Positions 4,768-8,602 of a stretch of DNA of 24,040 nt are shown piece by piece. The notes beneath the pieces are model-generated. The model was given only the letters and a program-made list of their open reading frames with translations, made no database searches and had not been told where the DNA came from. The stretch lies in IMG/VR virus record IMGVR_UViG_3300025010_000231, positions 1 to 24,040 of that record; one strand, written 5' to 3'. Both the position numbers and the translations under genes were made by a program. Numbering within the stretch: the stretch's first letter is position 1; each line of letters begins with the position of its first letter. This stretch comes from a virus.

Positions 4768-5919
4768 TTACTCCGTATACCGAGATTTTCTGTTCAGCAG
4801 CAGGGTGTCTTCTATCTGATTCCAAACCTTCTGGACCACTCTCCTCAGTTTCGGTTCAAGGTTCAATTCTTCGATCTTCCTGACCAGTTTGTCTTTGCCA
4901 TTCTCTCTGAGATCCAGTTCAGGGGCTTCGACCCAAGAACCCGACTTCCAGTGCTTTTCCTTCAGGAGAAAGTCAACCATACTCCCGGTGTCGTCAATAC
5001 CCATATCATAATAGATGTTGAATTCTACATCCCTCAATTTCCCAGTGATGGAGTTCTTGTCCATCCTAATCTTGGAAGTTACACCGACCTTTCTTTCCAA
5101 CTTCTTCAACGATGCTACTTTAGAGAGATATGGACGAACGTGAGAATAGAAATATGGCGCCTCTCCACCTGATGTTACAAACGGAGATTGGCCAGGCATT
5201 GGGTTCATTTTTTGTCTGAGTTGCTGAGTAAGGATGAAAATAGAATTGGTATCAGCAACAACCTTGTTGATCATCCTGAGAATCTGGCCGAGTATCTTTG
5301 CTTTTTCTGCGTTGAAGCTCCCTGCGATCTTGGCTGCCGCTTCGTCCGACTTAGCAGATGCAATCGCTCTTCGCATTTCTTTCTCCAGTTCCTCGTCAGT
5401 CGTAAATGAGTCCAGTGAGTCGGCGACGTAAACAAACTTTTCTCCTTTCTTTCTCAAGAGAAGCATCCTATTACGGAGGTGCTGAATAGTATCGGAAATT
5501 CCCGTGTCCTCGTCAGTTTCTTCCAAGTCCCGATAGAGAATACCTGACGGAGTTTTCAAGCGATTGAGCAAAGGAGGAAACAGCTTTTTGATATCGAAGT
5601 CATTCCTTCTCTCTACATCGTCATAATACAGTTCGTAGTCGTTGAACTTTTCGTCCAGGCAGGCTTCTGTAAATGAACTGAGGATCACAATCGTTTTCCC
5701 TGCTGCTGACTGGCCAGGCATCGTCGATATTCTTCCCAACGGCCAACCTTTTTTTACATGGTCAGACATAGCCAGGTTGAGCATAGTGGATCCAGTAGAA
5801 AGAAATCCGTTGTATTTGGATGGGGCTGTTTCTTCTTTGCTTCTGATCCTTCTCTTCATCTGATTGACCAGAGGTTCTTTTTCAACTGGCGTAGTCGTTG
5901 GCCTTTTGGATCTTTCCAT
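4768..5919 (-). CDS. RecA/UvsX-like recombinase
   Basis: 383 aa from the ATG at 5919, where GAGG lies seven bases upstream. This start overlaps the end of the small HTH gene by 38 bases. It has a RecA-type ATPase core: LSTGSTMLNLAMS then Walker A GQSAAGKT (69-76) and Walker B VYVADSLDS (163-171), followed by LTQQLRQK and an SGGEAPYFYSHVRPYL segment typical of phage and archaeal RecA-like proteins. It would form filaments on single-stranded DNA and drive strand exchange for recombination-dependent replication. SSB upstream and a RuvC-like resolvase downstream form a recombination set. Whether it is closer to UvsX or bacterial RecA cannot be decided here. Confidence 0.85.
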   Translation of the reverse strand: MERSKRPTTTPVEKEPLVNQMKRRIRSKEETAPSKYNGFLSTGSTMLNLAMSDHVKKGWPLGRISTMPGQSAAGKTIVILSSFTEACLDEKFNDYELYYDDVERRNDFDIKKLFPPLLNRLKTPSGILYRDLEETDEDTGISDTIQHLRNRMLLLRKKGEKFVYVADSLDSFTTDEELEKEMRRAIASAKSDEAAAKIAGSFNAEKAKILGQILRMINKVVADTNSIFILTQQLRQKMNPMPGQSPFVTSGGEAPYFYSHVRPYLSKVASLKKLERKVGVTSKIRMDKNSITGKLRDVEFNIYYDMGIDDTGSMVDFLLKEKHWKSGSWVEAPELDLRENGKDKLVRKIEELNLEPKLRRVVQKVWNQIEDTLLLNRKSRYTE

Positions 5920-6100
5920 TAATGAACCTCTTGAAGTTTTCAGGTTGTACATACCACTTTCCACCAGGACCGCCGAGTTGATGGCCGAAGTGGTGAGTTA
6001 AAATCCATTTAATCAGAGTAGGTTTGCTGACTTCCACCCCAATCTTGTTGGCTTCCTCAATTGCTCTGGTCAGCGTCCAGTACTTCTTTTCTTTTTCCAT
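5882..6100 (-). CDS. Small helix-turn-helix DNA-binding protein
   Basis: 72 aa. The segment YWTLTRAIEEANKIGVEVSK followed by PTLIKWILTHHFGHQL and a GGKWYVQPENFKRFING ending looks like an excisionase/MerR-type winged helix, where a helix-turn-helix is followed by a beta wing and an arginine/lysine-rich recognition end. It could be a transcription factor or a recombination accessory protein. It sits between the SSB and the recombinase genes and overlaps the latter. A GAGG motif lies upstream of its ATG. Confidence 0.75.
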   Translation of the reverse strand: MEKEKKYWTLTRAIEEANKIGVEVSKPTLIKWILTHHFGHQLGGPGGKWYVQPENFKRFINGKIQKANDYAS

Positions 6101-6113
6101 TCTGACCTCGTAG

Positions 6114-6140
6114 TCCAGGGGGTTTCTCAGGCCCCCTGGA
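6114..6140. repeat. Perfect 9-bp hairpin between SSB and HTH genes
   Basis: TCCAGGGGG (6114-6122) and CCCCCTGGA (6132-6140) with a 9-nt loop. Read on the plus strand it is followed by TTTATTT, as in a terminator; on the transcribed minus strand no T run follows. It more likely protects the 3' end of SSB mRNA or separates expression of SSB from the genes downstream. Confidence 0.5.
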
Positions 6141-6145
6141 TTTAT

Positions 6146-6174
6146 TTAAAAAGGAAAGTCTTCAGCAGAACCTA
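6146..6174 (-). other. -1-frame SSB-like tail ending SAEDFPF
   Basis: Directly at the SSB stop codon the -1 frame reads ATA GGT TCT GCT GAA GAC TTT CCT TTT TAA, giving I-G-S-A-E-D-F-P-F. This looks like the conserved acidic/aromatic tip of SSB proteins. The SSB frame ends GAA AAA TAG in a run of five A, so slippage by -1 or one extra A would join the tail. Confidence 0.5.
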
Positions 6175-7308
6175 TTTTTCTTTCTTCCTTCCTGCTGCTT
6201 TCAGGGCATCCTGAGCGTCTTTGCAATCATCCCATTTATCGCAGTCATCACAAGCATCGTCGGTATCACAATCTTTCCCGAATTCCATCCCTCCGGGGCA
6301 CTCATTGTCATTGTCATCATCGTCTTCTTCAGGTTCCGGCTCAGGAGCTGGTTTCATTTTTCTCTTTGGTGGAGGCGTAGGGGCTTCATCTTCCTCATCA
6401 TCAGGGTCGTCTTCTGGTTCTTCTTTTTTGGTTCGCCGCTGTTCTTTTGGTGCCAACTTCTTTTCAGCCTTTTCGGAACGCCCTGACTTTTTCGATCGTT
6501 CTTCAGGCTCTTCGTCAGGTTCGTCTTCTTCACCCCCGTCCAGCTCGAAGAACTTCTTTTCCATTTCTTCCGGGGTTAAGATCCTCAAAGCAGCGTCCAG
6601 ATCCACTGCACCTTCCAGGACGTCAGCAGAAAGGTCATCCCGTTCTTCGAAGTCGATCCTGGCTATCTCCGGGAACTTGTGACCACCGAAAGAACCTTCA
6701 GAGAAACGAGCCTTAATGGCCAGGCCATCAGTGCAGTCTCCGTAGAACTTTCCATCGAAGTCATCTGCCTGGGCCCGATCTTCATCATCCAGCATGAGGC
6801 CAAACTGGTAAGGGGAGATTTCAAACAACTGGATGCCTTTATCCTCATCTTCGTGGTCGAGCACATTGAAGATTTGACGCTGCTTCGGCTTCAGGCTGTC
6901 TGCGAGCTCAGGGTCGTTTCCTTTCTTGATCAAGTCTTCCCTATACTCACAGATCGGACATCGCTTGTGCGACGATTGAACAGTCTTCTTCAGGCAAATG
7001 AAACGCTTGCTGTCGTCTCCTACTCCGACTTTGTGCTGCCAGTAAGTGCATTCATGCCACAGTTCACTTACTTCCTGAAAAGGATGGTTGGGAATACTTA
7101 CGACATAAGGCACGATGGAAAAGTTGTTCTTTCCTTTTTCTCCTCGGCCCTTTTTGGGCTTGAAGAACTCGATGTCAGGAGGTAGATTCTGGAGAGTATC
7201 AAGCCCCCCGCCACCCCTCTCTTTCTGCTCTGCTGCTTTCCTGGCTTTGTCCCGGATAGACTCCCGAGCAGCACCACGCTTCTTTGTTCTTTCTTCTCTT
7301 CTGGCCAT
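6172..7308 (-). CDS. ssb: Phage single-stranded DNA binding protein (gp32-like, zinc-binding)
   Basis: 378 aa. After a basic N-terminus, the core (residues 45-250) has the features of phage gp32-like proteins: a zinc-site candidate made of H85/C87, C105 and C117-P-I-C120, then a segment RQIFNVLDHEDEDKGIQLFEIS. The C-terminal third is extremely acidic and ends in a cysteine cluster (ECPGG, DCDTDDACDDC, WDDC) of a kind I recall in such phage proteins. It coats single-stranded DNA and would contact recombinase and polymerase. Ribosome binding site AAGGAA. The ORF stops with TAG after a basic KKEK end, while an SSB-type DFPF tip lies just beyond in the -1 frame. Confidence 0.85.
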   Translation of the reverse strand: MARREERTKKRGAARESIRDKARKAAEQKERGGGGLDTLQNLPPDIEFFKPKKGRGEKGKNNFSIVPYVVSIPNHPFQEVSELWHECTYWQHKVGVGDDSKRFICLKKTVQSSHKRCPICEYREDLIKKGNDPELADSLKPKQRQIFNVLDHEDEDKGIQLFEISPYQFGLMLDDEDRAQADDFDGKFYGDCTDGLAIKARFSEGSFGGHKFPEIARIDFEERDDLSADVLEGAVDLDAALRILTPEEMEKKFFELDGGEEDEPDEEPEERSKKSGRSEKAEKKLAPKEQRRTKKEEPEDDPDDEEDEAPTPPPKRKMKPAPEPEPEEDDDDNDNECPGGMEFGKDCDTDDACDDCDKWDDCKDAQDALKAAGRKKEK

Positions 7309-7586: not shown

Positions 7587-8072
7587 TTATTTGTTTCTCT
7601 TCAGTTTATCTGCCGCCCTGGTCCTCACCTGAGTCTCTGTTCTGCTTCGTTTCTTGTCGAGTTCCTCCTTTACATTTCTTGGCTCAGAAGGCCTGGCAAA
7701 GTAGTCGGCCAATCCCAGTCTGACCAAATTTTCCAACATTGACTTCCTCTGGTTGAAAGCAAAGACAGCAGCAGTGGCAATGTTCATTTCATATTCTGCT
7801 TCGATGAACTGTTCTTTGGCCTCAATGTGCTTGGGATGAGTCCGGTAAAAAGCCTCGACCTTCTGGGCGTTGCTCAACTCTTTGTTCCCACCAGCCAACT
7901 TGATCAGCTCAGAGCGGGTAACTTTTACATTCTCGTAGGCAATGGCATAGTTCCTTTTGGCTTTTGCTTCTGCTCTGCTGTACTTTCCAAATAGAGACGG
8001 CTGCCTGAGGCACTCAATATCCAGTTCGTCTGGGTCTATCTCAATGTCATTTGTATACTCGTCTTTGTTCAC
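7587..8072 (-). CDS. Conserved phage protein, possible UvsY-like recombination mediator
   Basis: 161 aa, GTG start at 8072 with AAAGGAG six bases upstream. Mostly helical and charged: LRQPSLFGKYSRAEAKAKRN, then IEAEYEMNIATAAVFAFNQR and LENLVRLGLADYFA. The order (YxKxxxxA-type helix, a middle charged helix, then a C-terminal helix with AFxxRKxxLExLxRL) resembles in outline T4 UvsY, which loads UvsX on SSB-covered DNA. Its position just before SSB and near a RecA/UvsX-like gene supports this, but the similarity is from memory only. Confidence 0.65.
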   Translation of the reverse strand: MNKDEYTNDIEIDPDELDIECLRQPSLFGKYSRAEAKAKRNYAIAYENVKVTRSELIKLAGGNKELSNAQKVEAFYRTHPKHIEAKEQFIEAEYEMNIATAAVFAFNQRKSMLENLVRLGLADYFARPSEPRNVKEELDKKRSRTETQVRTRAADKLKRNK

Positions 8073-8083
8073 GGGGTTCTCCT

Positions 8084-8602
8084 TTAGAATGGAACATCAT
8101 TATCTGGTTTGTTTAACCTGGCTTTTTCTTTTTTCTTCCTTTGTTTCAAAAACGAAATATCTCTATGGATTTTCTTCAGGCATTCAAACAATTCTACTCG
8201 ATGCCTTTTCTCTTTGATTACTTCGTAGCCGATAAAACTCTCAAAATGCATTGCTGCAGACTTCCAAGCTCGATAGTTTATCATATCCATCGGAGCTATA
8301 ATGTTATATCTCCTTTGATTTATCGTAATAATAATTGAGTAAAATTCTTGTTGTCTTTCTTGATCGCAAGAATCTCCCCAGCTCTGCTCAAATATTTGCT
8401 TACATTCCCAATATGCTGGCCAGGTTCTTTCAAGTGTTTCAAATATCTTTTTTAACTTATCATAAGAAATCAGATAGTCATAGTCAGAATCTTCTCTTTC
8501 AACACCCCAAGCCCGACTACCTATAAAAATAGCAACATCTTTTATTGATTTCAAAAGGAATCTTTTTGCTTTTTCATTCTCTTTTTCGTCAAAAGGCTTC
8601 AT
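8084..8602 (-). CDS. Nucleotidyltransferase-like protein with SSB-type C-terminal tip
   Basis: 172 aa. GSRAWGVEREDSDYDYLI (28-45) is the GS-x(8-13)-D-x-D signature of polymerase-beta-type nucleotidyltransferases (Asp40 and Asp42). These enzymes transfer nucleotides to proteins, RNA or small molecules; the substrate cannot be predicted. The C-terminus is a lysine-rich helix ending in KPDNDVPF, which looks like the acidic D-x-P-F tip of SSB proteins. It begins one codon after, and in the same frame as, the TAG of the clamp loader gene. There is no clear separate ribosome binding site, so translation is probably coupled. Confidence 0.75.
   Translation of the reverse strand: MKPFDEKENEKAKRFLLKSIKDVAIFIGSRAWGVEREDSDYDYLISYDKLKKIFETLERTWPAYWECKQIFEQSWGDSCDQERQQEFYSIIITINQRRYNIIAPMDMINYRAWKSAAMHFESFIGYEVIKEKRHRVELFECLKKIHRDISFLKQRKKKEKARLNKPDNDVPF

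Follow-up and report, generated by a model that had tools for sequence, protein, structure and literature searches.

A putative -1 recoding site at the end of a phage gp32-type single-stranded DNA-binding protein gene, with a conserved docking-like tip behind it

Why should the gene for a phage single-stranded DNA-binding protein (SSB) stop immediately ahead of a well-formed SSB-type tip that can be read only in the -1 frame? The question is raised by a 24-kb phage contig (24,040 nucleotides, called the window here) that carries a broad replication gene set on its minus strand, encoding a PolIII-alpha-like polymerase, a clamp, a clamp-loader ATPase, a primase, a DnaB-like helicase, and UvsX/RecA-like and UvsY-like proteins. 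In the 0 frame, the SSB gene (6172..7308, minus strand) encodes a gp32-like, predicted ssDNA-binding protein of 378 aa, a tailless form that ends in GRKKEK, and its 3′ end reads ...GCA GCA GGA AGG AAG AAA GAA AAA TAG, with the stop at 6174-6172. A run of five A (6179-6175, minus strand) lies just before the TAG and forms the putative slip site GA[A_AAA] (6175..6180) that abuts it. The -1 frame across this point (6175-6146) reads ATA GGT TCT GCT GAA GAC TTT CCT TTT TAA, i.e., I-G-S-A-E-D-F-P-F-stop, which resembles the C-terminal tip of bacterial SSB (SSB-Ct). An acidic SAEDFPF tail behind a -1 shift was the central claim of the original prediction, and the sequence confirms it with every coordinate right. 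Also on the minus strand, the next gene encodes an HTH_17-like protein of 72 aa (5882..6100; Pfam HTH_17, 21.3 bits, below the cut-off), and the neighbors encode a RecA/UvsX-like recombinase (4768..5964; PF00154, E=3e-20; PHROG UvsX-like, E=3e-36) and a UvsY-like protein (7587..8072; PF11056, 20.4 bits, below the cut-off), the latter being a possible partner of the SSB tip.

The sequence profile and the predicted core fold both place the window SSB in the gp32 type, as for T4 gp32. The Pfam gp32 model gave 24.4 bits (E 3.5e-5), below its curated cut-off of 26.8 bits, and the profile of the window SSB matched T4/RB69 gp32 in the PDB (E 6e-4). An AlphaFold model built from 49 sequences reached a pLDDT of 80, an earlier one from 9 sequences having been useless (pLDDT 35), and in a Foldseek search with the better model the six best solved-structure matches were all T4/RB69 gp32 (E 5e-7 to 7e-5), at an identity of ~13%. 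T4 gp32 uses a single reading frame and is not known to end in xPF. No match to the window SSB was found among phage and plasmid records, and a first scan of genome contigs found no relatives; a second scan turned up four, all distant and from metagenome-assembled genomes, and the shifted tip was absent from each of them.

That the tail was unlikely to be a product of chance had also been proposed, and a control across open reading frames agrees. We searched for [DE]x(0-2)[ILVFM]P[FYW] followed by a stop at 1,253 distinct ORF ends, drawn from the window and every related locus that was fetched. Because these loci had been chosen for their relationship to SSB or RecA, the sample is weighted toward SSB genes: the motif was reached in the -1 frame at 7 of the 1,253 ends, all of them SSB genes, and it is the absence of any +1 case (0/1,253) and of any non-SSB gene with a -1 tip that serves as the control. 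In-frame readthrough reached it once (1/1,253, in L054), and a narrower first pass had found the -1 tip at 5 of 831 ends, again all SSB. The 0-frame stop before the -1 tip is TAG in all seven cases, compared with 193 of the 1,253 stops overall. The "PF" that follows the stop in L054 and L080 was rejected as a tip, since the following gene begins with those bases, and the one match of a DNA pattern scan, in L126, was an unrelated chance match.

Homologues had been suggested as the place to look for a DFPF-type tip, and relatives of the window SSB either encode one in frame or place it after the same -1 shift. The seven -1 cases are the window, L002, L012, L013, L015, L124, and L149, and each has a candidate slippery motif at the frame switch. 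L002, with 87% identity to the window over the aligned protein, ends in GGA AAA AAG TAG, i.e., the dnaX-type heptamer A_AAA_AAG and then TAG; read in -1, it yields VEYDAEDVPF. L012, L013, and L015 have a run of nine A (A9) followed by TAG, with the -1 tips IEYSGTGEDVPF, IDHSTGELPF, and IDYSTGELPF, respectively. L124 and L149, members of a distant group that are ~93% identical to each other, have A_AAA_AAG before or just upstream of the TAG, and their -1 frame encodes a 44-residue extension with a Cys-knuckle domain and a DDDLPF/NDDLPF tip; L148, from a separate sample, shows no difference from L124 over 3,032 bases. In the window clade, the tip is 9, 10, 10, 10, or 12 residues long and in the -1 frame in every case, and across the family the C-terminal acidic-x-P-F appears as EDFPF, EDVPF, GELPF, EDIPF, DDIPF, and DDDLPF. 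The in-frame tips of L003 and L004/5 (..TGEDIPF) and of L018 (IDYSTGELPF, with A10) show what the SSB gene normally encodes. L004/5 also has an A9 run, at which a -1 shift would end the protein at KKK-stop, the arrangement of Escherichia coli dnaX. Among SSBs at a greater distance, some have an in-frame DDIPF, DDIPY, DDDDVPF, or EADIPF end, and most have no tip. A tree of the SSB core groups the window with L002, L003 with L004, L006 with L020, and L012 with L013/14/15/18, indicating that forms with an in-frame tip, a shifted tip, or no tip are intermingled. A separate arrangement was seen in L011 (3085-3126), where the SSB end reads IDA-TAG-EMPPF-TAA, so that an in-frame stop precedes a PF tip, near relatives having DDIPF in frame.

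The layout is shared by the relatives, and on that basis these phages probably produce the SSB in two versions, one with the docking tip and one without it. We consider it likely, from the comparison of sequences, that the gene is decoded in two ways through -1 recoding, giving the tailless SSB and a fraction with the SSB-Ct-like tip. The absence of the tip from L006, L014, and L020 counts against this, since it shows that the tip is dispensable in evolution. The same losses, together with the weak slip site in the window, would suit a relic, in which one-base deletions removed an in-frame tip and an untranslated leftover persists. Such decay is improbable, however, given that all seven cases lie in the same -1 frame with tip and stop intact, that spacer length changes by whole codons, and that 8 of the 10 tip substitutions in the window clade are silent in the tip frame, whereas ~2.6 would be expected. 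The silent changes are 5 of 6 among L013/L015/L018 and 3 of 4 between the window and L002, the expected fraction being ~0.24-0.27. A hand calculation with p=0.26 puts the probability of at least 8 silent changes in 10 at ~6e-4 and, without L018, that of 6 in 8 at ~5e-3, both from small numbers. The -1 extension appears to be conserved and under selection across the seven cases, although not for L124 versus L149 alone, a pair that we set aside as selection evidence because changes in its -1 part are 2 silent and 9 not, even though the cysteines and the tip are kept.

Long runs of A or T are depleted in these sequences, with 10 runs of at least 9 against 37 expected under a Markov model and 16 of at least 8 against 96. 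Yet the only run of at least 9 in the read sequence of the L012, L013, L015, L018, and L004/5 contigs is the one at the SSB end, which fits a slip site that is kept and further disfavors a relic. Such runs might instead change in length in the DNA, so that some phage particles would have the tip on (A10) and others would have it off (A9), and L018 (A10, in frame) and L015 (A9, out of frame), which share 91% DNA identity, look like the two states. We find this kind of phase variation no easier to accept than a relic, though: L015, L016, and L017 are the same phage from three samples (>99.9% identical) and read A9 in all three, and the runs in the window (A5) and L002 (A6 and then G) are too short for quick variation, yet their tips lie in -1.

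The original prediction left slippage and a missing A as alternatives; slippage is now the best explanation, and a missing A fails for six other lineages while being possible in the window. Adding one A would restore an in-frame tip in the window, L002, L012, L013, and L015, and another L002 gene is also disrupted at an A run, which leaves room for an error in that contig, but the window shows no other gene frameshift despite 144 A/T runs of at least 5, and the same place is affected in six other lineages and several samples, making a sequence error the least probable of the explanations considered. The frameshift test, a tblastn comparison of 488 ORF proteins between contigs that is blind to very short tails, found no true gene frameshift in the window, 17.8 kb of which was covered by homologues; its one window match was an antisense reading, and matches overall were mostly antisense ORFs. 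In L002, the homologue of the window gene at 8084-8602 is out of frame after T_TTA_AAA, and L002 may for this reason hold errors or else a second recoded gene. A frameshift outside SSB that proved real on checking affects an HNH-endonuclease-like gene at ~10263 of the L013 contig (L140), relative to its homologues.

Under two-way decoding, most ribosomes would stop at the UAG right after the Lys codon run and release tailless SSB, and a fraction would shift to -1 at the A-rich Lys codons, with tRNA-Lys slipping at A_AAA_AAG or A_AAA. At the A9 sites, mRNAs with one extra A, made by RNA-polymerase slippage, would be an alternative, and either machinery could act, while A_AAA_AAG is most naturally read as a site of ribosomal slippage. 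The shift would add 9-12 residues ending in acidic-x-P-F, and tipped subunits, mixed into the ssDNA filament in a ratio that recoding would set, would recruit partners at a limited density. The means seem to alternate among the related phages, with a ribosomal heptamer in some, an A9 run in others, and the tip in frame in others still, which is broader than the single A run first pointed out. Whether this phage group sets the number of tip-bearing filament subunits by -1 recoding, swapping the means and keeping the two-form output, we regard as evenly balanced. The site in the window, A_AAA, is the weakest of the slip sites, and the A_AAA tetramer is weak in E. coli reporter tests (PMC4066793); the shift in the window may be rare for this reason, and decay or a missing A there is possible.

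Neither of two kinds of stimulator was demonstrated. Shine-Dalgarno-like pairing at SSB ends was no stronger than that at other purine-rich ends (not significant), and no structure was found at stimulator spacing downstream of the slip site. A 9-bp hairpin, UCCAGGGGG/CCCCCUGGA (6114..6140, minus strand), lies 3′ of the tip, between the SSB gene and the HTH gene, but was rejected as a frameshift stimulator, since at ~35 nt beyond the stop it is too far for the usual spacing. L002 has the same hairpin with a compensatory pair change (GGAGG/CCTCC). The window hairpin has no T run, and those of L013-L018 are terminator-like. In L014, an inserted HNH-endonuclease-like gene (after 4113, between the SSB and HTH genes) replaced both the SSB tip and the hairpin.

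The closest known parallel may be dnaX. In E. coli, A_AAA_AAG, which is the dnaX site, shifts much more readily than similar heptamers do, a few bacteria have a reversed dnaX layout in which the 0-frame stop abuts the shift site and the shift yields the longer form, and dnaX of Thermus thermophilus uses transcriptional slippage (PMC5009743). Like dnaX with its gamma and tau, the SSB gene is a replication gene whose two putative forms would differ at the C-terminus, and L002, L124, and L149 share its heptamer. The SSB stop directly after the shift site recalls the reversed layout, and polymerase slippage of the T. thermophilus kind is a possible alternative at the A9 sites. Unlike dnaX, the protein is unrelated, its extension is a putative docking tip of 9-12 residues (44 in L124/L149), and no stimulator was found at the SSB sites. 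The tip itself, with acidic residues and then hydrophobic-P-F at the C-terminal end, is like bacterial SSB-Ct (DDDIPF in E. coli), which has this composition and likewise closes an ssDNA-binding protein (PMC5872125) and which recruits partner proteins in bacteria (PMC5872125, PMC7145534), but it sits on a gp32-type fold rather than on the bacterial tetrameric SSB and here would be reached only by -1 recoding. In our search of part of the literature, no report of an SSB with frameshifting or slippage was found, and SSB is mentioned neither in the text of the GeneTack survey nor in the available part of a recoding review.

Among phage genes, the lambda-type tail assembly chaperone has a conserved -1 shift near the gene end that yields a long minor form (reviewed in PMC5009743). 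The SSB gene is similar in being a phage gene with a conserved putative -1 shift near its end, but differs in being a replication gene and not a structural assembly gene. How many SSB tails are needed per replication fork is usually approached with engineered SSBs, and in the present case recoding appears to provide a natural means of dosing the tip, on an SSB whose fold is known. The related phages offer short test sequences, with the tip in frame, behind A_AAA_AAG, behind A9, or absent, and dnaX-type control would be extended to another core replication protein. Phage replication proteins may have the acidic-xPF tip in common as a tag for docking.

Similar ends were also seen outside the SSB genes. 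The window gene at 8084-8602 (minus strand) encodes a nucleotidyltransferase-looking protein with no Pfam hit, the in-frame end of which, DNDVPF, is like the SSB tip, and in its homologue in L002 (1532-2059) a YDDIPF tip is reached in -1, apparently past T_TTA_AAA. In distant contigs, clamp-loader ATPases and a DNA-polymerase-like protein end in DHDIPF (L051 ..1243), EADVPF (L052 ..2105), and EEDIPF (L106 ..962).
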